A stretch of 64,000 bases of DNA from Galdieria sulphuraria. Its lineage: Eukaryota > Rhodophyta > Bangiophyceae > Galdieriales > Galdieriaceae. The notes beneath the pieces were generated by a model. It was not told the DNA's origin. It searched no databases and was given only the letters and a program-made list of their open reading frames with translations. Within the stretch, counting starts at the first letter, position 1. Each line of letters starts with the position of its first letter. The stretch spans positions 80,540 to 144,539 of the forward strand of contig NW_005178432.1 of assembly GCF_000341285.1 (NCBI RefSeq), written 5' to 3'. The translations under genes and the position numbers were made by a program. Positions 42,997-60,534 of this stretch are shown here, piece by piece.

Positions 42997-43854
42997 TCAG
43001 GACTCGCAAGTAGAAATAGTTCCTGAACGGATTGGTGGCACAACGAGACTGTGCTTTCTTTCGAGTCTAATTTCCAATTGACGAGATACTCTTTCAAATA
43101 AAACTGAAAGGCGCTCCGTTACCTTAGGATCTTCTTCCCGTGGAACGTAGTCCAGAAAAACCAATACAGCTTGAATTCGACCAAACAATGTGAAGGGCAC
43201 TCCGACAGCTGAACAAACACCAAACTTCCGTGCCAACTTTGCTCGGAGGAATATAGGATTCGTAGCAAGATGGTTAAGCCAAAGAGGTGTTTCGTTGCTG
43301 TAGACTTTTCCAGGTAAACCAGAGTTTGGAGGGAAGTGGTACTCTTGACTGGATGCTAAGAATCCTCTTATGAGTTGCAACTCACCAAGACCGTTCTCTT
43401 TCGTGGCAAACGAGTTTGCAAGCTTAAGAATGATCTCTTCTGATTTCTCACACAATTCGTCTTTCCCGATAAGCGACGTATCGGCATACCAAATTTCGGC
43501 AATCTTCCAAGCGGATAACTGTGAAACTGTTTCGCAAACTCTAGTCAACATAGGTAAAAATCGGAAATCTTGGGAAGAAAGCATTTCATTCAACCATTTC
43601 TCGAAACGTTCAATATCCGATAACAACAATCTGGTTTCTAATAGCTGCACTCGGCCTTGAAGCTTCTGTACCCGATAAATAATTTCCTGAAGAACTCGAA
43701 CTTTGGAACGAACAGGAACAATTTCTACCTCGTCACTTGACACCAGTTGAAGAAGCATCATGAGATAGTCATTTAGTTTTTTTCGACTTGCTTTCGTCGC
43801 AATGTTATGTTTCAGCCTTTTGAAGTCTGTTGAGAGCGACCTGTTTGACGACAT
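42997..43854 (-). CDS. bHLH-like protein with a GAF domain
   Basis: Single exon, 285 residues, ATG at 43854. Residues about 10-75 read as a basic helix-loop-helix: the basic part RLKHNIATKASRKKLNDYL, then a loop and a second helix KVRVLQEIIYRVQKLQGRV running into a leucine-rich coiled coil. The Glu that normally contacts E-box DNA is a Thr. Residues about 95-270 fit a GAF sensor domain: WKIAEIWYAD, then PNSGLPGKVYSNETPLWLN, KFGVCSAVGVPF and AVLVFLDYV. A GAF fold binds small ligands or mediates dimerisation. The combination suggests a ligand-responsive transcription factor, an inference. Confidence 0.65.
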   Translation of the reverse strand: MSSNRSLSTDFKRLKHNIATKASRKKLNDYLMMLLQLVSSDEVEIVPVRSKVRVLQEIIYRVQKLQGRVQLLETRLLLSDIERFEKWLNEMLSSQDFRFLPMLTRVCETVSQLSAWKIAEIWYADTSLIGKDELCEKSEEIILKLANSFATKENGLGELQLIRGFLASSQEYHFPPNSGLPGKVYSNETPLWLNHLATNPIFLRAKLARKFGVCSAVGVPFTLFGRIQAVLVFLDYVPREEDPKVTERLSVLFERVSRQLEIRLERKHSLVVPPIRSGTISTCES

Positions 43855-44228: not shown

Positions 44229-45638
44229 CTAATAAAATAAAACATTTTTTTTCAATATATCTGAACGACTCGTTTGAGAAGGCAGGAAATGGTAATAATG
44301 AGAGGCGCAGGTCGCAACCAAGCTTGCTAAAAGCACCGCTGGAAAGGCTTCCATAGAGTTTGAAAGTTGGGCAAGCACTAATGGAGTGGCAAATACAGTT
44401 CTAGTCAGTGTTACATTGATCCCCGCTGCGCAACATAGACAAGCCGTCTCCACCGATAACTGTGGAATGGCTATAGAAAATGCTCTTCCAAAGCAGACTC
44501 CAACGAACATCACCGGAAATATAAAACCACCCCGATAACTGGAAGTTATTGCTATAGCGATACAAAGAAACTTTGCAAAGCCTAATGAAACATAATAAGC
44601 AAATGTAGGATTTGAATTATCCAAAGTGATAGAATGCTGTGAAGGGAAATAATAATTCCATTGCTGATTTTGTAGTTGAATAAGTCGCCCAATTTCCATT
44701 TCTCCCCAAAAGCTAGTTTGTGGAAACAACACTCCAATCAAGGTGTTACTTAGCGCTCCAAGTAGAGCCAAAAGAACAGGGTTGTATGTAAGGCGAGTTT
44801 CCTGGATGCTTTTTCTTAGTAACTTTACCATTTTACCCAACAGAACTGCAACAAGACTGCCGAGAAGACCAAGCAGAGCTCCATAAGCCACGGAGGAAAC
44901 AGAACAGGTTCCGAAGGGAGGAAATTGCCAAACACCGTTAAAGCTTCTCCCACTAAGACTAAGCGATATGAGAGCACTGATAGATCCTGACCAAGCTGCA
45001 TAAATCATGTGTTCAAAATATTCGTAACCATCTCGATGAAGCACCTCCAGTGCAAACAAGGAACCACCCAGAGGTGCCCCAAAGAAAACCGAAAAACCTG
45101 AAGCCATCCCACTCAAAACATATCTACGGCAACTGTCTGTATCGCGAACTTGGAACCATCGACGTGACAGAACTCCGGAGAACATTCCACACATCGTCAC
45201 TATTGGTGCTTCAGGTCCAAGGCTCATTGCTCCCACAACTGTAGCTAAGGAGCAAATTACCAAGCTCTTCAAAGGCTCTGTAGGTATGTATGCCTTTTCA
45301 TGGACACATTGGATGGTTGCGTTCAAGTCTCCTGGGTTACCAAGATATACTTGGGCACTTCCACATACAAGTCCACAAGAGAGTGAAACCAGCAAGCTCC
45401 ATACTGCTCGGAACATATTCTCATTGATATACATTCTGTTGGTTATTTTAGAAAATATAACCGTCGGAATCTTCTTCCAGAGGCTTTCAAGGAGCAGCTG
45501 TAGAATTGAATAATAAAGAAAAGTGACCAACCCGCAGAAGATTCCTATGAGAGTGCTTTTCATGATATTTATCGGAAAAGAATCCTTTTCAAAGTCTGAT
45601 ATATCATCAAGAAAAGAAGTTTTGTCTTCTTCGGACAT
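44229..45638 (-). CDS. CLC-family anion channel or transporter
   Basis: Single exon, 469 residues, about 10-12 hydrophobic helices, no C-terminal CBS domains. Family motifs: the gating-glutamate block SLGPEAPIVTM (GREGP in bacteria), SGMASGFSVFFGAPLGGSLFALEV, and RGGFIFPVMFVGVCFG. The first selectivity segment is LGNPGD, unlike the usual GSGIPE. At the internal proton-glutamate position the text reads ALEV, that is Val, as in CLC channels, rather than EE as in exchangers. It is divergent from the nitrate transporter gene, 163 bp between starts, which makes nitrate a plausible permeant ion; that is inference. Confidence 0.88.
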   Translation of the reverse strand: MSEEDKTSFLDDISDFEKDSFPINIMKSTLIGIFCGLVTFLYYSILQLLLESLWKKIPTVIFSKITNRMYINENMFRAVWSLLVSLSCGLVCGSAQVYLGNPGDLNATIQCVHEKAYIPTEPLKSLVICSLATVVGAMSLGPEAPIVTMCGMFSGVLSRRWFQVRDTDSCRRYVLSGMASGFSVFFGAPLGGSLFALEVLHRDGYEYFEHMIYAAWSGSISALISLSLSGRSFNGVWQFPPFGTCSVSSVAYGALLGLLGSLVAVLLGKMVKLLRKSIQETRLTYNPVLLALLGALSNTLIGVLFPQTSFWGEMEIGRLIQLQNQQWNYYFPSQHSITLDNSNPTFAYYVSLGFAKFLCIAIAITSSYRGGFIFPVMFVGVCFGRAFSIAIPQLSVETACLCCAAGINVTLTRTVFATPLVLAQLSNSMEAFPAVLLASLVATCASHYYHFLPSQTSRSDILKKNVLFY

Positions 45639-45801
45639 TGACTGAATAAATTAGATCCAAGTCACGTTTTTTGCTAAGTAGGCTTTTCGATCTACTATTC
45701 CTTCCGTTGGAATTCGTTTATCTCGCGCCTTCAACGGAGAAGATTGCCCATGTTGTTTTAAATCAGAGGAAAGCAATTTTTCCATTTCGAAAATAATTTC
45801 G

Positions 45802-47839
45802 ATGGCTGCTAAAGAGGAAACTGAAAATTTTTTTACCGGGTTGACGAAAGGGTTATCTAAAGAGGAGGCGCGTATTTATTCAACGGATGCAGACTTGTTT
45901 TCTTCAGACTGTTGTCATACAGAATCGAGCAGATGTCCAGAATTTAAGCTTCCAGTGAATCCGGCTAGTAAAGCAACGAAGATTAATCTCTTGAGTATTG
46001 CCAGACCTCATATGAGAGCATTTCATTTTGCCTGGTTATCCTTTTTCCTTTCGTACGTCAAGAAATGGGTTGGTTTCCTACATGTTGACTTTAAATGTTT
46101 TCATAGCTTCTTTGCTTGGTTTTCCATCCCTCCGCTAGTTACCACTATAGAACAGTTTGATCATTTGTCTCCTGGAGAGAAGGATAACACAGACATTCTT
46201 GCATCCGCAGGAACTGTTTTGGCTAGATTGATTATTGGCCCGTTGGCAGATGAATATGGACCGAGAACGATGCAGTTGACTACTTTGACAGTCTTCTCGA
46301 TTCCTGTATTTTTGACTGGTGCTACATTCAATTACGCCTCATTGGCGGTTTGTCGATTCTTTATTGGAATGGTTGGAGCAGCATTTGTGGTAGGAGAGTT
46401 TTCGTTGCGTTCATTTTTTATATTACCAAGTAGCTATCATAGGTGACTGAATTCTGGACCAACCTTCATTTTGCTCCAAATATTGTAGGTTTGGCTACAT
46501 CAACTACTGCGGGATGGGGAAATGCAGGAGCAGGTGTAGCCAATGCCCTTATGCCACAAATCTATAATCTGTTTCAGGACTTTGGACTGGATAAAGACAA
46601 AGCTTGGAGGGCATGTTATATTGTTCCTGGAATTCTCTTATGGATTGTTGGGTTGAACTTGTACTTTTTCTCAGATGACTGTCCTCGTGGTAATTATAAA
46701 GAGCTGATTGCATCTTCTGAGAGAAGGAAAGTTCCATTTCTGCAGGCGTTGAAGCGAGCTTCGTTCAACTACGTTGCCTGGTTGTTATTTATCGCATATG
46801 CCATCAGCTTTGGTGTGGAAGTTTTGCTGAACATCAGGCTTTCTTCCTATTTTCAATCCCGATTTTCTGTTATTCAGAGCAAGGCTGGATTAGCAGCAGG
46901 ACTTTTTGGATTGACGAACATTTTTGCGAGGACTCTTGGAGGAGTATGCAGTGATATGTCAGCCAAATATTTCGGAATGAGAGGAAGACTATGGTCATTG
47001 TTTCTTTTTCTTATTCTTGAAGGAGTCTTTTGTTTGGTCTTCTATGAAATGTCAGGCTTTGGTTCGAGCATTGGAGTCCTTGTACCATTCAGCATTTTTG
47101 TGCAGTGTAGCACAGGTATGGTTAAAATATAATATCTACGATTCATTCCATATGTAATTATTCTAACGATGATCAAGGATGTGTTTTCTCCATTGTGCCT
47201 TTTGTGCTTCCAACCTTTGTTGGAGGTGTTGCAGGATTGGTTGGAGCTGGAGGGAACGTTGGCTCAGTGGTATTTGGCTTTCTTTGGAAGCTTCCAGGAG
47301 TATCCAACGATCCCGGAAAGCCCTTTTTCTTCTTATCATTCTTTATTCTCGGACTGGCGTTTGTCGTTCCGTTTATTCATTTTCCAAAATACGGCTCTAT
47401 GTTCTTTTCACCAAGAAACAAAATACAAGAAAGAAAGAATTCAGATCGAGAGAGTGCTCATATAAGATGGATTCCTATGAAAATAGATGAAGAAGTAGAG
47501 AGTCTATCCATCAGCTGTGTGGAAGTCTTGAACAAGAAATTTTCTTTCGACTGTCACTATTGTCGCTGTTTAGAGTGCAACAGGAAGGAAGAAAGTGTCC
47601 CTTCTTCTCCGGAGTTTCAAGCCACTTGTTCGAGCTTTGCGGATGAGGTGAAATGTAAATCTCAACAAGAAGAAGCATGCTATGTCTTGAACCTTGAAAT
47701 TACCATTCTTCAAACATCATATCTCGTGTTGCTTGATGTAGTTCTGTCAACCGCAGATAATTGGATTTTGAAAAGCGTCTCTTTTCCTGTGCATTCCATG
47801 TTTAAGTCACCCGTGGCCATTTGCAAGCTCGAAGAATGA
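45802..47839 (+). CDS. NRT2: NRT2/NarK-type nitrate transporter with a long C-terminal tail
   Basis: Four exons, 45802-46052, 46107-46389, 46443-47115 and 47178-47839, encode 622 residues of the major facilitator superfamily. Landmarks: FHFAWLSFFLSFFAWFSIPP across junction 1, VLARLIIGPLADEYGPR, the nitrate signature TTAGWGNAGAGVANALMPQ, and the second glycine-rich signature GLVGAGGNVGSVVFG. The C-terminal tail of about 150 residues is cytosolic and carries a Cys cluster CHYCRCLEC (C-x2-C-x-C-x2-C). Intron 1 is 54 nt, stop-free and a multiple of three. Neighbours are an anion channel, a ferric-reductase-like protein and nitrite reductase, so this is a nitrate assimilation cluster. Confidence 0.93.
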
Positions 47840-47975: not shown

Positions 47976-50540
47976 TTAAAACTCAAATGTTTCCGTGGAA
48001 GTTGTACAACTCCAGTTGTCATTCTCCAACAACCTGCAATGTTCCTGTACTTGACTCACCATAGAAGGAGGTCCACATATGTAACTAATGCCTTTGTGGA
48101 TCCCAAGCAATAGAGACTCATGTCTCCAATTACAAATGACCGTATTCCAATCAGGACGTCCCCTGTAAAAATGGATTGTTTGACTAAATGAGGAGTCTAT
48201 TAGACAAGGAAAATCTCCATTTGTAATGTAAATTTCATAATGAACCACGTATTTTAGCAAATGATCTTCTTGAATACTGAAAAGAACATCTTGAACCCAT
48301 TCAAAATGAGCAGTGTTTGATATTGTCCAACATAATGTGATATCTTCGAAAATATTTCTTTTGGAATGCTGATAAATGTCGCATAAGATGGATAGTATTC
48401 CCGTGATTCCTACACCACCAGCACATAACAGTATACTAGAAAAATGAAAGGGGTTAACGGGTAGACTACCGTAGGGTCCTTGTACTTGAATGATCATTTC
48501 ATTCAAAGAAACTTTACAGCCTTCCTCAAGTCGTTTGTAACCGTTCTCTATATAACAATCTAATCCTTGCTTATCATGTCTAAAGAAATTGCTTCCTAGT
48601 ATATTGTCTGGAGTTAGGCTTACTAATGGTTCTGTTGAATTTTCATTATTCCGAACCAGGCTATCGTAGACACTTATTCTTAAGCTCACATCTTGTCTTA
48701 CCAGAGAAGTGCATTCGTTAACCATGTTATAACATGAAGGCCATATATTCGAACGTGATGACGAACAAAGGAAATTTCCTGTTTCAAAAGAAACGTGATC
48801 GTTTGATAAGGCTATTTCCGAAAGACTATGATTCGCTGAACCCACTCTGGAAAATGTCAACTGAAGGAGATATTGGATAAATTCCTTCTTCAGTCCGTAA
48901 AAACAAGTTATCCTTGGCATCTGTGGCAATTGTTTAGAGTCCACACGAAGGATGCTCTTGGATGAAATGTCTTTCTCCACAGACAACCACGATACAGTTG
49001 ATATGTTCCTGTCATTTTCTCCTAGCATTCTTCCATTGGCAAATTGGAGTTCTTCGACCAACTCATCATTGTTATAAAACAATGAATATCCTTGACAAGC
49101 TTTGTATAGTTTATCGGTGAAGGAACGCGTCATCCCTCTTCTCACTATAATATCAAAAGTATTGGAATCCAACGAGAATATCGAAAATGGATGAGACTGT
49201 AGCCATGCTAAATGGGGAACTTTGAAGAATCCAAGGTGACCTCCGATGCCTTCTGTTGTCCATTCCCGGGGTCCAACAAGCGTGATGCGGACAGCATCTT
49301 GAAAAACTCGAATTTTTAAAGGGATTACTTCATAAGTTCGATAAATACGGAGCATATAATCGATTCCCAACGATAAAAGACCTGGAGCTAAGTAATACGC
49401 AGCAAATCCTATGTGAAGGACTGTAAAAATCAGACAGAAGGGGAAGAGGATGACATGAGAATAGTAGAAAACTTCGAAAGCCTTTCTTCTAATGCGATGC
49501 AGAGCCAAAACTCCTAAAAGAAGAAGAAAAAGATGGGCAAAAATACCAGGCAAGTTAAATCGCACATGCGTCGATGAAAAACTAAACAAAAAAGCAAAAC
49601 CTCGGGATTGGAACATGTAGGAATGAAACATGCCAAATGCGTGCCAGCTGGTAAGAAATAAAGTCCAGTAACCTAGCAACCGATGATACAAGAGTGTTCT
49701 CTCAAAACAAGTCCCCATGATGGACCACAAAGGAGAGTTTCGAGAGACAGGAAATAACAAAATGCCAAGATTACAAACTGCCAGTTCACCAGCACATCTT
49801 GTAAGTGGTGATTTCAGACTAATATACTTTTGAAAGTATAGATAGCGGCAAAAGTATGCTTGAAAGATAAGATATATGGCAACCCTGGAGTCTATAATAT
49901 AAAGGATTGTTTCGCTCACAAACCTATTTCCTTTAAAAACAGGTGACATTACATTGGCAAGTTTCTTCCGACAAACACGCTGAAATGACGACAGTAAAGA
50001 ACCGTACTTACAGGCGGAAACTCTGTTGAAAATAACACTATACAAAACTAAAATTGTACAGAACATATAAAATGGTAACACACTTTCTTCCAAGCCTAGG
50101 CGATACAACGAAGCTAATGTGCGGGATAGAACAGTTTCTCCTGGACAAACTGGTCTCTTAGCTTTTGTTATAGAACTCCTGGTTCCGGGATGAGATATAT
50201 CCCAAACTCGAAAAGGGATGTCTCCTTTCTTCCAGACACAGCAGGGATCACCCAACTCCATGCCGTTGCTTTGACCGTCGCCATCGGAGTCTAGCACACA
50301 AAGTCTTTTCCAGTTGCCACCAACCTTACGAAAGTCTTTTCCAAACTGATTTATGCCGGTCGTACCCATCGCATCTTTATGACCGACACCTATCCAAGAA
50401 GTTGTATTGGATTGAGGGTCCAGAACTTTGGCTCCGTTAGGAAACTGATCCAAGTAATTGAGATGACCAGTTACCAGGCAACACAGGGATACGAATATAA
50501 CCAGAAAAACATGCGGTGACGACGAAAAAGGTGCTAGCAT
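47976..50540 (-). CDS. Temptin-domain / ferric reductase-NADPH oxidase-like fusion protein
   Basis: Single exon, 854 residues from the ATG at 50540. A signal peptide (MLAPFSSSPHVFLVIFVSL) precedes a temptin-like luminal domain with DQFPNGAKVLDP, WIGVGHKDAMG, LCVLDSDGDGQSNGMELGDP and ISHPGTR. A ferric-reductase-type membrane domain follows, with two His-x13-His heme pairs (YHRLLGYW to SWHAF, and YYSHVILF to VLHIG). The C-terminus has an FAD motif SHPFSIFS, a pyrophosphate and nucleotide region GPYGSLPV with CAGGVGITGI, and CGPPSM. It should move electrons from cytosolic NAD(P)H across the membrane to the outside. Partner and acceptor are unknown; see the finding on the molybdenum enzyme nearby. 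Confidence 0.85.
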   Translation of the reverse strand: MLAPFSSSPHVFLVIFVSLCCLVTGHLNYLDQFPNGAKVLDPQSNTTSWIGVGHKDAMGTTGINQFGKDFRKVGGNWKRLCVLDSDGDGQSNGMELGDPCCVWKKGDIPFRVWDISHPGTRSSITKAKRPVCPGETVLSRTLASLYRLGLEESVLPFYMFCTILVLYSVIFNRVSACKYGSLLSSFQRVCRKKLANVMSPVFKGNRFVSETILYIIDSRVAIYLIFQAYFCRYLYFQKYISLKSPLTRCAGELAVCNLGILLFPVSRNSPLWSIMGTCFERTLLYHRLLGYWTLFLTSWHAFGMFHSYMFQSRGFAFLFSFSSTHVRFNLPGIFAHLFLLLLGVLALHRIRRKAFEVFYYSHVILFPFCLIFTVLHIGFAAYYLAPGLLSLGIDYMLRIYRTYEVIPLKIRVFQDAVRITLVGPREWTTEGIGGHLGFFKVPHLAWLQSHPFSIFSLDSNTFDIIVRRGMTRSFTDKLYKACQGYSLFYNNDELVEELQFANGRMLGENDRNISTVSWLSVEKDISSKSILRVDSKQLPQMPRITCFYGLKKEFIQYLLQLTFSRVGSANHSLSEIALSNDHVSFETGNFLCSSSRSNIWPSCYNMVNECTSLVRQDVSLRISVYDSLVRNNENSTEPLVSLTPDNILGSNFFRHDKQGLDCYIENGYKRLEEGCKVSLNEMIIQVQGPYGSLPVNPFHFSSILLCAGGVGITGILSILCDIYQHSKRNIFEDITLCWTISNTAHFEWVQDVLFSIQEDHLLKYVVHYEIYITNGDFPCLIDSSFSQTIHFYRGRPDWNTVICNWRHESLLLGIHKGISYICGPPSMVSQVQEHCRLLENDNWSCTTSTETFEF

Positions 50541-50718
50541 TAGACTTCTGTACACAAAATGAAGGCGCAACAGCAATACTTTTTATTTGACTGTCTAAAA
50601 GGTCACTCATCATTGCCTGTCCTCGTTACTCTCGAGATCAACGGAATCTCAACGGAAATGCATTTATAGACAGAACAATTCACAACAATATTGTTACAGA
50701 AACTTGTTGGTAAGTTTG

Positions 50719-52578
50719 ATGGATAGATCATCATTTGTCTTTCATAAAAATGTTGCTTATCTTTTTCTTACTAATTCATCATGCCCTTTTTCAGTTTCTT
50801 CGACAAACCATAGAAGAATGCATTGTAGGTCATTGTGTTACGTCAGGACGAACGCACTTTCTGTACGGAGACTTAATGAGACTACTGCTTCGGCTGACTC
50901 AGCCCCGCTTGAGGATTCCTTGCCGAGTTTTGACTTACCTCTCATTACTGGTTGGGATTTTTTACCAAAGACAATACAACAGTCCGTTTTGGAGAACAAT
51001 AATAAGATAGAGAAACTGAAAGCTGAAAAGGATGGAAGCTTAGCTTGGCAAGAGATACAGAAGTACAGTCAAATGCTTCGGGATGGAAACGTAAACTGGG
51101 AAGATATTCCACCTGAAGACTTGGATATCCGTTTAAAGTGGGCCGGCTTCTTTCACAGAAGAAAGAGAGTTCCCGGGACCTTTATGGTGCGTTTGAGGCT
51201 TCCAAACGGTATCATTTGGGGCTATCAACTGAAAGCTTTATGCAGTTTCCTTCGTCGTTATGATCTACAAAATACATGCTTTGACATCACTACCAGACAA
51301 AATTTACAGCTTCGTGGAATAAGACTGGAGGATGCTGGTATTTTTTTAGAAGAACTTACTCGCCTAGGAATTGGATGCTTTCAAAGTGGAATGGATAATG
51401 TGCGTAATATAGTTGGTTCTCCTCTAGCAGGTATAGATCCATATGAATTATATGATACAAGAAGTATCTGCTTTGCCTTGGATGAGATGATATCGAACGG
51501 TGGAAAAGGTAAACCAGATTTTGCCAATCTTCCAAGAAAATTTAATATTGCGGTGGGTAGCTACTCTGTGGACACAGTGCACGGTCATATCAACGACTTG
51601 GCTTTCTTACCCATCGCAAAAGATGATAGCTCAGGGAGCTTACTTTTCGAGATACTTATAGGCGGCCTCTTGTCTCCCAAAAGAAATGAAACTTCACTTA
51701 GACTAAATCTATGGGTTCCTGAAAGTTCTATTTTGGCTGTCACTCGTGTGGTCTTGGAAATTTACAGAGATTTTGGTTTCCGGAATTCACGAGCAACTAG
51801 CCGCTTTATCTATCTTATTGAATCATGGGGTTTAGAGAGAATAAAGGCTGAGATAGTTCGAAGGCTAGAAGAAAAGGATGTGGTGTGGTTGGAACCCTTG
51901 AAAAACTCCATAGCAGATAACTCAGCCCCCGTGATTGGTTCGGAAATTTTTGGCATTCATTTACAAAGGCAAAAGGACAAATTCTTTCTTAGTTGTCATG
52001 TTCCTGTTGGTAGGCTGAATGTACAGGAAGCCGAAGTTTTAGCAGACATTGCAAGTAACTATTCCTGTGGAGAAATTAGACTTACTGTGGATCAGAACTT
52101 TATCTTGCCTAATATAGTTCGCACTAAAATAGAAAGTGTTTTACAAGAACCACTTCTTCGTGAACGATTTACTCACAGACCAAGACCACTTTCGAAAGGA
52201 TTGGTTTCTTGTACGGGTTCTCAATTTTGTGGTTTGGCTCTAATAGAAACAAAAAATCGCTCCTTGGAGCTTTGCAAAATCCTGGAAGAGACGCTTGACT
52301 TTCCTGATGGACAAACGGTGCGTATCCATTGGACGGGTTGCCCCAACTCTTGTGGACAAGCACAAGTTGCAGATATCGGTTTGATGGGAGCTCCAGCCAA
52401 ACAAGATGGAAAACTTGTCGAAGGAGTAGACATTTACCTAGGAGGCACATTAGGAGTGAACTCCACTTTGGGAACTTTATACAGAAAAGGGATTCCCTGT
52501 GATTTCAAATACCTACTTCCTATCATGATAGAATTACTTCAGACACATTTTGGTGCTAGACTAAAGGAAGATATGTGA
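50719..52578 (+). CDS. nirA: Ferredoxin-nitrite reductase, plastid
   Basis: Reduces nitrite to ammonium with six electrons from ferredoxin, using siroheme and a [4Fe-4S] cluster. The plant/cyanobacterial type is shown by VPGTFMVRLRLPNG, DITTRQNLQLRGI, LPRKFNIAVGS, HINDLAFLPI and the cluster ligands SCTGSQFCGLA and TGCPNSCGQAQVADIG. Open reading continues from an ATG at 50719, but a good intron (GTAAGT at 50710, branch-like TACTAAT, TTTTTCAG ending at 50796) covers that start. If it is spliced, translation begins at 50818 with MHCRSLCYVRTNALS, a good plastid transit peptide, and the protein has 586 residues. I favour the spliced form. Confidence 0.94.
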   Translation: MDRSSFVFHKNVAYLFLTNSSCPFSVSSTNHRRMHCRSLCYVRTNALSVRRLNETTASADSAPLEDSLPSFDLPLITGWDFLPKTIQQSVLENNNKIEKLKAEKDGSLAWQEIQKYSQMLRDGNVNWEDIPPEDLDIRLKWAGFFHRRKRVPGTFMVRLRLPNGIIWGYQLKALCSFLRRYDLQNTCFDITTRQNLQLRGIRLEDAGIFLEELTRLGIGCFQSGMDNVRNIVGSPLAGIDPYELYDTRSICFALDEMISNGGKGKPDFANLPRKFNIAVGSYSVDTVHGHINDLAFLPIAKDDSSGSLLFEILIGGLLSPKRNETSLRLNLWVPESSILAVTRVVLEIYRDFGFRNSRATSRFIYLIESWGLERIKAEIVRRLEEKDVVWLEPLKNSIADNSAPVIGSEIFGIHLQRQKDKFFLSCHVPVGRLNVQEAEVLADIASNYSCGEIRLTVDQNFILPNIVRTKIESVLQEPLLRERFTHRPRPLSKGLVSCTGSQFCGLALIETKNRSLELCKILEETLDFPDGQTVRIHWTGCPNSCGQAQVADIGLMGAPAKQDGKLVEGVDIYLGGTLGVNSTLGTLYRKGIPCDFKYLLPIMIELLQTHFGARLKEDM

Positions 52579-53092
52579 CTGGAAGGCAATTTTGGTTTCT
52601 CTTAATCTTTCAAAACACTATACTCTGTGAGACTTTGATCTAGACGGTTTCGCCTAACAACAGCTTGAATGTTGTATAAAACCTACAATTCCGAATGTTT
52701 ATTCGACTGCTAAGTTAGGTAACCAGTTGTAGTTTTTATACTGCTGGTAGCAAAAGACACACAATGGTTGTAGCTGGATAGTTCACACTTATACTTCGCT
52801 TCACATTAGCTATTCGCTTGAGAATTTCCCCCTTTCGACAAGGAGTCCAGTACTTAGTAACGCTTGTGCATTCCTCATTCGGATGACAAGATATCTAGCA
52901 GAATTTCGTAAAAGCCAGAATTGTGCATATTGTGTAAGGATGGATATGTTGCGTTGCGTGTAGTAAACCACGGCAATAATTCAAAATACGAATTTTTGGG
53001 TTTACTGGACGAGAAGATTCCTTCTCTTCTGAAGCCGACATAAAAATAAAAAGGTATTGTTTTGCTCGAAAGAGGCCAACTCTAATAACCAA
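52579..53092. other. Convergent intergenic stretch without a gene
   Basis: About 510 bp between the convergent nitrite reductase and molybdenum oxidoreductase genes. No ORF or RNA gene is supported. Confidence 0.6.
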
Positions 53093-54261
53093 CTAGATAA
53101 TCTCAAAGATTACAGAACCGACCCCATGCCATCCACCCAAGTCGTTTGTCCAAGTTTCATCTGTTGCCATTCCATTAACGCATTGAACTTTAGAGAAAAC
53201 CTGAAAAACTCCTTTCCATTCGTGAGATATATCTATTTTCCACAAACTCCAAACGTCAACTGTGCCTCTTCGAACAATTTCAGCAGCTATCCAGGAAACG
53301 TTCTCAAAAATCTTTCCAGAATACTGTGATTTCCAATCTCTGTAATCGCCATAAACCCTATCGTAAGCTACCGAAACATTCTGCACTTCCTGACTTCCGC
53401 AATAGGCGATTCCTGTTATTCGTAAAGTACTTTTTCCTTTAGACCCAGCAATTCTGCTAAATTGGCCAGGATAGTAGATAAAGCTAACTGGACGTATCCT
53501 ATGTTCAGCAGGCCATCCTTGTAGCTCGAAAATATCCTTCTGATGTTGGGCTTGAGAAAGAAACTCTATTTTCTCGATCCACTTTACATTCTTCGTTCCA
53601 TAATAGGAAGTCGCAATGATTCGAACTGGAAAGCCATGTTCTGGGGACAACCACTGACCATTCATTTTCCAAACCAACCACAAGTTATCTAAATTTTCCA
53701 ATGGAATACTTGCAATATAACCATCTCTACCTTTCATTTCAACATAATCACAATCTGTAGTCCAATGAAGATTCCTCATTTGTATAATTTCTAGCACTGT
53801 TACTCCAGTCCATATCCTTCAAACAATAGCTGAGATAAACGAAATATCCATCGAATCAAATTTACTTACGCGTTTCCAATAGCAGACCAACTATCTGTTG
53901 CTCCAATACATAACAAGGTGAACTCTTTTTCTCTAACGGGCAACTTGGAAATTATTTCTTGAATTGTCACTGGTTCTATCTCGCTCTCCTTGCCTCGTAT
54001 TCCACCTTGTAAGTATAACTTCCAACCAGAAATTCCTTCAGGAAAATTTGGAATCACAGCACTGTGTGACAAAAAGAATAATTCTTTCCAACTCGTGATC
54101 ATTCTCGGGAGGCAACTGAAGTCCATACAATGCTGCTCTCGTATCCACTCAATATCTGAATCGTTGTTCCAGAACCAATAAGGATAACAAACGGATACAA
54201 GCACAATAAAAGAAACAAAAACGACCAAGAAAATTTGAACAACTTGTGAAAACCTCGCCAT
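53093..54261 (-). CDS. Membrane-anchored molybdenum-cofactor oxidoreductase (sulfite oxidase family)
   Basis: Two exons, 54261-53870 and 53816-53093, encode 371 residues. An N-terminal signal anchor (FLVVFVSFIVLVSVCYPYWF) puts the catalytic part outside the cytosol. The Moco domain shows ELFFLSHSAVIP, then FTLLCIGATDSWSAIGNA, where the Cys matches the molybdenum-ligating Cys of the family. After the splice come IWTGVTVLEII, GYIASIPLE and MNGQWLSPEHGFPVR. The Mo-dimer domain follows (LRITGIAYCG, ending ETWTNDLGGWHGVGSV). The substrate-binding Arg of the CAGNRR motif is missing, so sulfite or nitrate as substrate is uncertain. There is no heme or FAD domain, so it needs a separate electron partner. 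Confidence 0.85.
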
Positions 54262-55447: not shown

Positions 55448-56044
55448 TTAACATCTATCACTCGACATTTTTCTTTTTCCGTTTTTTGCTGAACTTTCAT
55501 CAAACACTACGAGAAGATATTGATCAAAGGGAATGCTTAAAGTCTTTCGTAGCTCTAGAACCACCGAAAGTTTTGGATAGGGAGGAATGTGTCCGTAGGC
55601 TTCATCATCAGGCTTCATAAACGGTAGACCCGTCTGATCACAAGCTGATCGGTAGAATAAAAAGTACAAAGCCCACTCAAGGTTTCTTTTTTCCTCGATG
55701 GGTCGAATGGGCTCCAACTTCCTTGGATCAATGAACAGTAACGAAGTATTTTCAGGCTTCTTCAAAAAACCTCTTCGGTTGGACTTCTCAGACTCACCAA
55801 CGTCATTGAGACCTATCAGTGCACTTTCACCCACGTTACTCAACAGTTCCAAATAACTTTGTATGAATTTTGTCTTGCCACTTCCGAAGAGGTGGGGACC
55901 AACGGGTATGACTGGTTTGAAAGGGGGACCAAGTTTACGTAGAGTGTATAGCTGAAATAACTGCAGTGTTACTACACGAACATCATTTTCTCGGTGTACT
56001 ACAACCATGTCATATACGGTTTCTGGTTCAAATTCACTAGACAT
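55448..56044 (-). pseudogene. Truncated P-loop NTPase, tandem paralogue
   Basis: A 198-codon ORF (ATG 56044) homologous along its length to the first 200 residues of the next gene. Shared blocks: MVVVHRENDVRVVTLQLFQL, GPHLFGSGKTKFIQSYLELL (Walker A), NTSLLFIDPRKLEPIRPIEE, RNLEWALYFLFYR and QYLLVVFDESS (Walker B). Right after Walker B the sequence changes to KNGKRKMSSDRC and stops; the rest of the family domain is not found downstream. It is either a decayed copy or a short separate protein. Confidence 0.6.
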
Positions 56045-56584
56045 ATCGTAAGCTGTGAAGTAAACTATGCGACAGAAAAATACAACAATGATCGATCTTC
56101 TTCAATTGTTTCCAATGCTCAAACTCATGATTGAGACGAAAATCGTTGGAAGCTTTGAACAAATATGCAGCACAACTACATATATATCAATTATCATTTT
56201 TCATTTCCTTGTAATAAAGAGTGGATATTGGTTTCTGTGCAATTGTATATAAAGACAACTTCTCTGAGCTATTAGAAAATAACCAGCTGAGGAACTTTCA
56301 ACTTAAGGCGAACCATAAATAAAGTCTTTGATGAATACAAGACCTTGTATAAAACCCAATCGTCAACACTTTAAGACACTCTCCTGAGAAGTAACAAGAA
56401 GCAAATATGACCTGTCAAACTGTGACAGTGACTTTTACAACAATAGGCTTATTTTGATTTTCGTGGTTAGTACCATATTACGACGATACTCCTCAGAGTA
56501 AAAGCGAGTAAGCTGTAACCAAGTTTCAAACATACAAAAAAGTTTACTTGCTCTTCAAAACAAAGGGAAGGACTGAGTTAGAAT
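56045..56584. other. Spacer between the two NTPase copies
   Basis: About 540 bp, AT-rich, without supported ORF or RNA gene. Confidence 0.5.
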
Positions 56585-58683
56585 CTATTGCCAACTTAAG
56601 AAACTGTTACGGATTCTATGAAGTAAATCTAATCCAAAATCCCAAAAAGTAGGATTATGAATATGAAATGCTCTTTCAAGTACGCTCAATATTTCTTCGT
56701 CAATCAGCATTTGGACATCTCTTTCACAAAGAATAACAAGTTCACAATTATCAGGTACTTTGAAAGAATCATTTCCAATAAACATTCCACTGGTGTAACA
56801 ACGACTCTGATTATCCAACTCATTAGAAACTTTCAATGATAACTTTGTACTAACGATAATAAGCATACAATGATGATAATCCATTGCACTGGATAAGACT
56901 TGATCATAAACAGGATCTAAAAATTTCTTGGCTTCATCTATAATATCTGACCAGCCAATTCCTTCCGACCTCCAACGTCCTTTACATGCAACTCCAACAG
57001 TAAGAACTTTGGGTTCCACAGCAGATTGTAATTGGAATATAATATCAGGACTATGAGAAGTGGCGTCCAAAGGAATGTAAATAGTCTCTAAATAAAGTGT
57101 CTCTCGAATAATGTTATTCCATTCAGTATTGGCAAAAGTTCTTCGACTCTTGTTCGATTCACTTCTTGTTTCTCTAGAACTAACAACAGACTTCATATAG
57201 TGAATAGGTGATATTGTACTCATTGGAAGTTTCATTTGTTTCCATATCGGAGACAATTGACACAACAATTCCCTCAACTCATTTAAGACAACATCAAAAC
57301 TAGTCGTAAAGCAACAATTCCTTCAAATACACGACACTTTGAATAGAAGAAACAATCTACTGGTTCTACATCAAGTGATCCAAGAAGTATCTTTTCCAAA
57401 GAAGATATGGAAGGGTCGTTCTTGAAGATTACAATAAATACTTTTGGAATTAGGACTTGGAAAGTATTCTGGTCAACAGGATATCGATATAGTCCCATTT
57501 CAGTTACGGCATCAAATAGATAAGACTCCGAGGTCAATATGTCATCTACTGGAAACGGTATACGATAAAGTGCCATCATCAAAAGCATATCAAAAACACT
57601 TCTTCTATCTTCGTCCAAATTCAATATTCGTTCCACAAATGGTTCAGCACAAATTATTCGGAAATCGTAGTCGTTCATACACATCAAACATTCTTCTTTC
57701 GATATGAAAGGCTGGTTTCTTGCTATTACATAATTCAAAAGCATATTCACTGCACGAGTCAACAAACCAGGAACTCCACCTGTACATTCCAATAATGAGT
57801 CTGCCAATTCATTTACTGAAAATGAAGAACTACATAAGACATTACAAACTGGAACTTGAGTAGGTGTCTTTAGAAGACTTTTTCCAAGGAATTCAACGAT
57901 ACTGCAAGCGTCCAAAGGTGATAAAGGGATAAAATGTAGTATAACTCTCGATAGCCCAAAAGCCACATCATTCTTAATACTTAAACCCTTGCTTTTCCCA
58001 ACAACTATAAAAAACAAGTCGGGTTCTTTGCACAATTGACTAATGATACCGAAAAAGTCATTGTAAGGTCGAATCACACCTTTTTCGTTCTTCTCCAGTT
58101 CAAAAAGAATTCCATTCGTATCCAAAACACCAACTTCATCAAAAGCTACCAAAAGATATTGATCGGAAGTAATGTTTAAGATGGAACGAAGTTTCCTAAC
58201 TAACTTATAGGGACGTGTACGGCATTCTTTAAATACTACTTCTTCATCCTCTGGTTCTTGTCCAACAGAAGTGCAACACGCTTCTATCATTCGATAGTAG
58301 ACTGCCCACTTTAGGTTGCGTTCTTTCGGTTCTGTGGGCTTCAACTCCCTCAAATCCACAAAGAGCAACGAAGCCCTTTTCAGCTTCTCCAAAAAGGTTC
58401 TCCTCAAAGGGTCCGAAGCAAAAGTCGACAGAAAAGTTTCACCAAACCTTCGCACCAACTCCAAATAGTTATGACAAAACGTAGTCTTGCCAGAACCAAA
58501 CAGATGCGGAGCAAATGGTATCGTCAAGCGATAGTCGCAACTACTCGTTACACCCCTGAGTTGTTCTCTGTTGCTATGAAGATCATACAGTTCTTTTGTC
58601 ACTCGAACAACATCTCTTTCACGATCTACCACAACAGACTTAAAGTTGTCCACAGCTTCCCACTTTTCATCCAAACTCGCCAT
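56585..58683 (-). CDS. Large P-loop NTPase with nuclease-like C-terminal region
   Basis: From the ATG at 58683 the frame is open to 57283 and continues in a second frame, 57299-56585. Joining them with a 38-nt GTGTCG...CTAG interval (57300-57337) restores one frame of 686 residues; a frameshift is the alternative. Walker A is PHLFGSGKTTF (His where the usual first Gly stands), Walker B is LLVAFDEVG, and ECTGGVPGLLTRAVNMLLNY resembles the GxP motif of STAND/archaeal-type ATPases. The C-terminal part has SPDIIFQLQ and LTVGVACKGRW, spaced like a PD-(D/E)xK nuclease core but without the usual acidic residue. Galdieria is known for an expanded archaeal-type ATPase family; membership here is inferred. 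Confidence 0.6.
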
Positions 58684-60534
58684 CGCCAAAGAGAAATTAA
58701 ACAATCTTTTGTTTATTTCGGAGTACAAATATAAATAAACGATTGACTGTTTGTCGGTCACAACAACAACAAGGAAAACAGTAAAGGATACCAATCCAAC
58801 TTCTTCTCTTTATCAACTGATGACTATGTCATACCTTTTATGGCTTGGACTGAGATGACTTGAACTATGGAAGAACGATCAATATGGCTTTTTCCGCTAT
58901 CGATATTCTTATTCTCGTATGCTAATATAATGGCAACTCTCATAGGGTACAAGAAGGATTAGAAGGAAGCCAATGTTTATTTCACAAGTTTTTTATGCTC
59001 TTTGAGAGTATAAAGCTATTGAACATGGCCCATTCTCACATAGATAAGAAAGTTTCTTTCAGAATTTTCGAGAGTAGTCATGAGAGTTCCAAGCAATATA
59101 GATTGTTCATGAAGAATTTGTTCCATAGACGTCTCTCTCTAGATTTTCTGTATTTTATAGAACAGTTTTTACGTCACTTTTGCTTCATTTCGAAACACGG
59201 AACTAGAGTATGAACCAAGTCATTCTCTTGTACAGTCTATTCAAAAGCTCCAATTGAAATATTATTATTTAGTAGAAATGCAGAAACCCGCAAGCACAGC
59301 ACTGCTTTATTTTCAGCAATCATCAAATTCCTTTCTCACGATATCATGACAAGTAGCAGCTTATCACTAAAGCTACAAAAGTTGATGATAGCAAAAGACA
59401 AAACCAAAACAAATGTGCAAAGAAGGATCCAAAATATCGCGTGGTTTTATCAAATCTCAGAAACAACAATGACTCACACAAGTGTATCATCAATACTCAA
59501 TTTCTGTAAGAGTCAATAACTCCTGTTTCTTTCTCCTCTGAAAATACTAACAGACAATAATAGCATTTGATACTATGGATTCTGTTAAGAGGAGAAAAGA
59601 TATTTTCAAGAAAAATTCAATTCAATCGAATTGAGTCTATTCTATCGACTCTCTTCTCGTATCTTGTCATTGCATAACATTTGAATCATAGTTGAATTCC
59701 TTCTCCTCAATAGTCGACTATACAATTGAGGTGCTTTTGAAGGTAAACATGACTGTTTAGGTTTAAAGGCTTTTGCTGCATCCTCTTGTACGATAAACTT
59801 TGTAAAAACCACAACTTGTAAAGATATACAAGAAAGCAAACTATAAAAAGTACAAAGCTGCTTTAGAAACGATATAACTCCAAGAGAGCTATTATCTCTT
59901 CCAATATAAAAAAAGGTAAAACTTTTAAAAGCTCTGCAAATTCAAAGAACGATTTGTCCAGTTGAGTCCTAATCTTCTTCCAATCTCAACCATCAGCTCG
60001 TTGAATAAGTGAGTCACTATACAAAAGTTCATTCCGTTAGGCACTTGGAAGAAGACTCCTGCGAAGTATATAACCTGATGGGTACACTAGTAGAGGCTTC
60101 CTTTTGGATATTGGTAACGAGAATCAAATAGAAGGAATGTTCATTTCTACTAGGGACAAGTCAAACTTGAAAAAGAAGCGAAACGCTGTTTTATCCAAGT
60201 TGCTCTACAGAGAATAAAAATATTTTCAACTCGCAAGCAATATTCAGCAGAATAAGATAAAACAATTTATCTGATTCTTCTGCAGAGTCAAATCTTAAAT
60301 GATATTTTGGTTGTTATCCAAACTGGTAAAGGTCTTGTTCTCTTAAATATACTGGATCAATTTCGTCTACTAGTGAAAAGAAAGGAATATAAACGTAGAA
60401 ATAATGGAAAAGTAAGAATCTTTCATCTCCTCTTTGCAAAGTAACAAAGAAAGGTGAATCTTGAAATATATGTGCAAGGAGAAGCAAAAGCGTCACCACT
60501 TTTACTCTTGTAACAGTCAAAACTCTCTACAAGT

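Follow-up and report, generated by a model that had tools for sequence, protein, structure and literature searches.

A 64,000-nucleotide stretch of the genome of the red alga Galdieria sulphuraria (contig NW_005178432.1, positions 80,540 to 144,539; here called the window) carries a nitrate assimilation cluster that includes genes for a membrane-anchored molybdenum cofactor (Moco) protein of the sulfite oxidase (SO) fold and for a ferric-reductase-type (FRE) protein. We tentatively propose that these two proteins form a split, membrane-spanning molybdenum reductase that replaces the usual eukaryotic nitrate reductase (NR), with nitrate as the likeliest single substrate. The FRE protein would pass electrons from cytosolic NAD(P)H to FAD and on across two stacked hemes to the outer side of the membrane, whether extracellular or vacuolar. 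There the anchored Moco protein would accept them and reduce an oxidized substrate, most likely nitrate; the resulting nitrite or nitrous acid would cross into the cell and serve as substrate for the ferredoxin-nitrite reductase (Fd-NiR) encoded in the cluster. One-piece NRs run in the order NAD(P)H-FAD-heme b5-Moco, and the proposed relay would keep the order NAD(P)H-FAD-heme-Moco, its halves being separated by a membrane. The domains, the cofactor-site motifs, the hydrophobic N terminus, the cluster, and the bacterial kinship of the Moco protein can be read directly from the sequence.

A membrane-anchored Moco protein

The Moco gene (positions 53093 to 54261, minus strand) encodes 371 amino acids from an ATG at 54261, in two exons (54261 to 53870 and 53816 to 53093) separated by a 53-nucleotide intron (53817 to 53869, minus strand) of the form GTAAGT...AG. 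The residues at the splice junction, IGNA/IWTG, match those of bacterial homologs, such as IGNAIWSG in the relative L011, and thus support the two-exon gene model. The protein matched PF00174 (E value, 3.5e-27) and no further Pfam family at an E value of ≤0.1, and hence no heme or flavin domain. Cys118, the candidate molybdenum ligand (codon at 53908 to 53910, minus strand), aligned with the cysteine of SO, NR, and the bacterial homologs, and H191, R196, and K209 aligned with the SO and NR residues that we take to bind the pterin; by PF00174, ligand cysteine, and pterin residues, the sequence is that of a sulfite oxidase superfamily member. The C-terminal half could be aligned with the second domain of both SO and SoxC, and the Pfam dimerization model had no match in the C terminus.

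Hydropathy predicted a single N-terminal transmembrane anchor at residues ~10 to 31 (54169 to 54234, minus strand; Kyte-Doolittle value, 2.95), flanked by a charge of +1, to which the amino end adds, on its N-terminal side and of −3 on its C-terminal side. Because of this charge bias and the exported bacterial relatives described below, the protein is predicted to lie N-in/C-out, with its Moco domain outside the cytosol. The original prediction had described a membrane-anchored Moco enzyme with neither a heme nor a flavin domain of its own, and this description held; its extracytosolic placement of the Moco domain agrees with the topology predicted here.

Kinship of the Moco protein

The solved structures that best matched the Moco protein were the Thermus sulfite oxidase 6y0k (E value, 6.2e-12), SorT, and plant sulfite oxidase, compared with E values of 2.5e-8 for solved NR and 0.9 for MsrP (1xdq). 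Among four NCBIfam models, SoxC ranked highest (1e-16) and MsrP lowest (1.2e-5), all well under their cutoffs: those of SoxC, SorT, and SorA were not reached, and the MsrP model gave 24.7 bits against a cutoff of 207, compared with 504 bits for Escherichia coli MsrP.

An alignment-based scan of prokaryote genomes yielded the best 80 loci (L011 to L090), of which the top two, L011 and L012, lay in metagenome-assembled genomes labeled Proteobacteria or proteobacterium. In a phylum-wise search covering the phylum of L011 (possibly Myxococcota) and three others, the Moco protein matched 46 of 377 genomes of the former at an E value of ≤1e-20 (best, 1.1e-34) and 2 of 199, 1 of 395, and 5 of 198 genomes of the latter. 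Twenty proteins of the bacterial subfamily were examined by eye, and 18 had a lipobox-type cysteine downstream of a twin-arginine motif; of the two exceptions, one starts near a contig end and the N terminus of the other was not recovered. These N termini indicate that the bacterial subfamily is exported and anchored. Searches of viral contigs returned no close relatives of the Moco or the FRE protein, and a single-protein scan of genome contigs returned none of the Moco protein.

A maximum-likelihood tree was built from 55 rows, 19 of which represented the subfamily (18 of the 20 examined proteins plus L012), and in it the Moco protein joined the bacterial subfamily with support of 100/98. 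By the approximately unbiased (AU) test, placing the protein with three MsrPs was rejected at P = 0.005 and placing it with SO plus NR at P = 9e-5. An earlier tree of 53 rows also recovered the subfamily clade at 100/98 and rejected SO plus NR (P = 3e-4), and grouping with E. coli MsrP alone was not rejected there (P = 0.2). The Moco protein sits on a long branch (2.65) and was flagged for odd composition, so its exact position is less certain than the support values suggest. A structure model of L011 (pLDDT, 72.9) aligned with sulfite oxidases and dehydrogenases over ~320 to 349 columns, compared with 186 for MsrP (1xdq_A). By sequence, the algal protein appears as kin to a bacterial exported SO-like subfamily that is distinct from SO and NR.

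Two small plasmid-borne Moco proteins of Rhizobium and Paraburkholderia (L151, 362 to 1992; L152, 649 to 1995), each encoded directly after a gene with a cytochrome b/b6 domain, branched with MsrP (98/96). One subfamily locus, L118, encodes a protein (60 to 1073) that by eye resembles an ammonium transporter and is encoded at least ~6 kb away from the SO-like gene; of the 20 bacterial loci, one besides L118 has a related protein.

The FRE protein

The FRE gene (47976 to 50540, minus strand; ATG at 50540) is a single open reading frame (ORF) that encodes 854 amino acids. After a signal peptide recognized by hydropathy, its product has a Temptin_C domain (PF24784; E value, 4.3e-30; 50184 to 50471, minus strand), extracytosolic by position, a ferric reductase transmembrane domain (PF01794; 8.4e-16; 49425 to 49793, minus strand), a FAD_binding_8 match (0.0008; 19.9 bits against a cutoff of 22), and an NAD(P)-binding domain (PF08030, NAD_binding_6; 6.2e-15; 48219 to 48443, minus strand). 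Its heme histidines form two pairs, H286/H300 and H362/H376, each spaced as HX13H, with H376 slightly beyond the Pfam match. The presence of all four histidines together with the FAD domain (slightly under its cutoff) and the NAD(P) domain supports the assignment of FRE as a ferric reductase with a complete NAD(P)H-to-outside electron chain in one protein, as the earlier suggestion of electron transfer from cytosolic NAD(P)H through two hemes had anticipated.

Between the FAD and NAD matches lie ~215 amino acids (approximately 48444 to 49091, minus strand) with no predicted transmembrane helices, a spacing that is long for the ferric reductase family. A Temptin_C domain that precedes a ferric reductase within one protein was likewise noted; a literature search for such a fusion led nowhere, its word matches apparently being to “tempting.” No relatives of FRE were found in plasmids at an E value of 1e-5, and the AlphaFold model of the protein was unusable (pLDDT, 39). 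Identification of FRE as a NOX was rejected: of the residues listed for NOX proteins that make reactive oxygen species (His-101, His-119, Thr-178, and Gly-179; PMC3591440), equivalents of His-101 and Gly-179 were present, but methionine occupied position 119 and proline position 178.

The nitrate gene cluster and its surroundings

The gene order is CLC (minus strand), NRT2/NarK-type transporter (plus), FRE (minus), Fd-NiR (plus), and Moco gene (minus), with the transporter, Fd-NiR, FRE, and Moco genes all inside ~10 kb. FRE and the Moco gene are separated by a single gene, Fd-NiR. The NRT2/NarK-type nitrate/nitrite transporter gene (45802 to 47839, plus strand) consists of three reading-frame pieces with approximate exon ends; pieces matched at E values of 4.8e-38 and 1.1e-23, each under the full-length cutoff of the model, and the first intron was looked for but not found. 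The Fd-NiR gene (50719 to 52578, plus strand) encodes 619 amino acids from the ATG at 50719 and matched solved nitrite reductase (9.1e-139) and the NCBIfam ferredoxin-nitrite reductase model (3e-177; 590.1 bits against a cutoff of 594); as a query against viral contigs, it returned three relatives. The cluster, predicted originally to contain an NRT2 transporter and nitrite reductase, is thus borne out by the NarK/NRT2-type and Fd-NiR matches. For the ATGs chosen, FRE and Fd-NiR diverge from a 178-bp intergenic region (50541 to 50718). The stretch is eukaryotic, and its GC content of 0.34 to 0.41, the short 53-nucleotide intron, and the typical plant/cyanobacterial-type Fd-NiR suggest a Galdieria-like source. 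A Pfam scan covered 27 proteins of the window (7 + 10 + 10), a subset of its ORFs, and among these there was no match to a one-piece NR (the cytochrome b5-FAD domain set) or to cytochrome b5.

The CLC-family anion transporter gene (44229 to 45638, minus strand; PF00654; E value, 3.7e-40) diverges from the NRT2-type gene across a 163-bp intergenic region (45639 to 45801). Its product could be an anion/nitrate exchanger in the same pathway; it contains GPEAP, which we take to be the gate glutamate site, and reads GNPGD in the filter region, where GxGxP is presumably usual for CLC proteins. A GAF-domain protein adjoining the cluster (42997 to 43854, minus strand; GAF, 4e-5, above cutoff; GAF_2, 3.2e-6, slightly below cutoff) is a possible regulator. 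On the other side, two ORFs (55448 to 56101 and 57283 to 58809, minus strand) have a P-loop-like HLFGSGKT motif in common and enclose a third (56585 to 57322); none of the three ORFs within 55448 to 58809 (minus strand) had a Pfam match, and they look like a repeated lineage-specific family at the cluster edge.

Nitrate use and the proposed split reductase

PMC5167705, which cites Schonknecht 2013, states that searches of G. sulphuraria had turned up no typical NR gene and describes growth on synthetic nitrate medium. Similarly, PMC7076501 describes the species as having no typical NR gene and an “unusual assimilatory system,” on the basis of unpublished work cited in Imamura 2010. Nitrate gene clusters in Cyanidioschyzon merolae and G. 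sulphuraria are mentioned in PMC6400420, in the accessible part of which the genes are unnamed. A search combining Galdieria, ferric reductase, and nitrate found no open-access paper that linked them, the sole co-mention being a Pfam name in a figure legend.

The split reductase is favored here because of the position of the genes in the cluster, the lack of a one-piece NR match, the reported NR gap, the exported kin of the Moco protein, and the FRE-type residues of its proposed partner; the 178-bp region common to FRE and Fd-NiR was counted on the same side. Nitrate is favored as the substrate because the Moco gene occupies the position of an NR gene in a lineage reported to have no typical one. 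We infer the topology of the algal protein, its partnership with FRE, its substrate, and the arrival of Moco at an exported protein.

Several observations weigh against this proposal. In the alignment, the arginines of SO and NR that we take to bind the oxyanion (in RNH and CAGNRR, and in WNLR of SO), along with the Tyr/Asn, were absent from the Moco protein: serine stood at or adjacent to the RNH arginine, Asp123 stood at the CAGNRR arginine, the WNLR arginine was missing, and Trp232 lay near the Tyr322/Asn position. The aligned bacterial subfamily rows likewise had no SO/NR substrate arginines. Their absence is the strongest argument against nitrate, and also against sulfite, as the substrate. 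We know of no example of Moco crossing a membrane to a secretory eukaryotic protein, and the presence of NRT2 in the cluster suggests that nitrate would be imported before it is reduced. No k-mer of ≥7 was common to the three promoter regions (about one 7-mer is expected by chance), and the MYB-core AACNG occurred there at 12 to 16 per kb compared with 8.5 in the window (raw densities). In the 20 bacterial loci, no neighbor family recurred in more than 4; neighbors were clustered rather than annotated singly, and the gene caller recovered the SO-like gene in 14 of these loci and missed it in 6. PMC5167705 also reports that the alga did not assimilate nitrate in those spring waters that were tested, and a review table (PMC4620153) gives one NR for G. 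sulphuraria, which is possibly the Moco gene described here or another gene.

The missing arginines would fit a relay that is real but acts on a neutral S- or N-oxide, such as the methionine sulfoxide of surface proteins, or on some other oxidant, the place in the cluster reflecting the oxidative or nitrosative load of nitrate metabolism. MsrP also has no oxyanion-binding arginines. It reduces methionine sulfoxide with electrons from a heme protein of the ferric reductase domain (FRD) type (PMC7759655 and PMC8228183). We consider such a relay unlikely, since it leaves the nitrate reduction of the lineage unexplained and no sequence or tree link connects the algal protein to MsrP. Quite unlikely, in our estimate, is that FRE is an ordinary metal reductase that provides iron for the siroheme and 4Fe-4S cluster of Fd-NiR while the Moco protein acts independently. 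The FRE-type rather than NOX-type residues are consistent with this role, as is the intergenic region that FRE has in common with iron-rich Fd-NiR and not with the Moco gene, but a Moco enzyme that carries neither a heme nor a flavin domain would then have no known donor in the cluster. Placing the Moco domain on the cytosolic side or in the intermembrane space of mitochondria, as an NR fed by soluble cytochrome b5 and a reductase with FRE irrelevant, would solve the problem of Moco insertion, and in the cytosol the enzyme would meet nitrate imported by NRT2. This arrangement is improbable, however, given the charge bias that predicts the domain outside, the lack of a cytochrome b5 match among the scanned proteins, and the exported bacterial relatives.

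The broader form of the split reductase proposal, in which a bacterial-type exported Moco subunit fed by FRE has replaced plant-type NR in acid-living red algae, is doubtful, and it would require Moco to reach a eukaryotic protein that is exported. If true, a membrane reductase and an exported molybdoenzyme of bacterial type have been combined to rebuild eukaryotic nitrate reduction across a membrane, which raises the question of how Moco is delivered beyond the cytosol. The cluster provides directly testable candidate genes for the NR question in Galdieria, and even with a substrate other than nitrate, an anchored eukaryotic Moco protein that belongs to an exported bacterial clade needs a biochemical identity.

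Comparison with known systems

The proposed relay resembles eukaryotic NR in its electron transfer order and its nitrate gene cluster. It differs in that NR is a single soluble chain with cytochrome b5 and CAGNRR, and the Moco protein was rejected as a plant-type NR or SO on the absence of the one-chain layout and of the RNH and CAGNRR arginines and on the AU results (P = 9e-5 and 3e-4). With eukaryotic SO it has the fold in common, and plant SO is also Moco-only, whereas the algal protein lacks the Arg/Tyr substrate residues, falls in another clade, and has an N-terminal anchor.

The algal protein also resembles the bacterial Tat-exported lipobox SO-like proteins (L011, L012, and L095 to L114), which form the 100/98 clade with it, have the same 14-residue spacing from the molybdenum cysteine to a tryptophan, and in most rows have CIG/CIS, WLVW.MNG, and YG.KN.KW. 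Both are predicted to be exported and membrane anchored (18 of 20 bacterial proteins). Identity to the algal protein in BLAST alignments is 26 to 36%, the bacterial proteins have a Tat signal plus a lipid anchor in place of a transmembrane anchor, and their loci have no recurrent neighbor family corresponding to the algal cluster.

Actinobacterial proteins of the Sco3746 type combine a predicted bis-heme b membrane domain with a Tat-exported Moco domain (PMC5449189); unlike in the alga, the heme and Moco parts are fused in one chain. Among the best 80 loci, 69 had at least four hydropathy-predicted transmembrane segments upstream of the Moco domain, and 55 of these 69 had no histidine in those segments. 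Since most of these segments lack histidine, the fused relatives are no evidence for heme coupling here and were dropped as a pointer to the partnership. In actinobacterial and other relatives (L013 to L090), an RR motif usually lies 48 to 57 residues ahead of the Moco domain.

The pair had originally been likened to bacterial MsrPQ (YedYZ), and this likeness stands as a matter of layout: both combine an SO-superfamily Moco protein outside with an FRD-type membrane heme protein and, as proposed, outward electron flow. Membership in the family does not stand. The Moco protein was rejected as an MsrP by its score, by the AU test, and by its clade, and its additional C-terminal region aligns to SO, whereas MsrP is defined as having no SO-type dimerization domain. 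MsrQ/YedZ comprises only the heme domain, with the first histidine of the third transmembrane helix replaced by arginine (PMC3591440), and it is reduced by the separate flavoprotein Fre, having no flavin domain of its own (PMC8228183). FRE was accordingly rejected as an MsrQ/YedZ: it keeps both H286 and H300, has two HX13H pairs, and has its own FAD and NAD domains. Because FRE, unlike MsrQ, has a flavin domain of its own, the whole algal chain that starts at NAD(P)H and ends at the outer face would reside in one protein. Neither half belongs to the MsrPQ family, and the algal pair, if real, would therefore have arisen independently.

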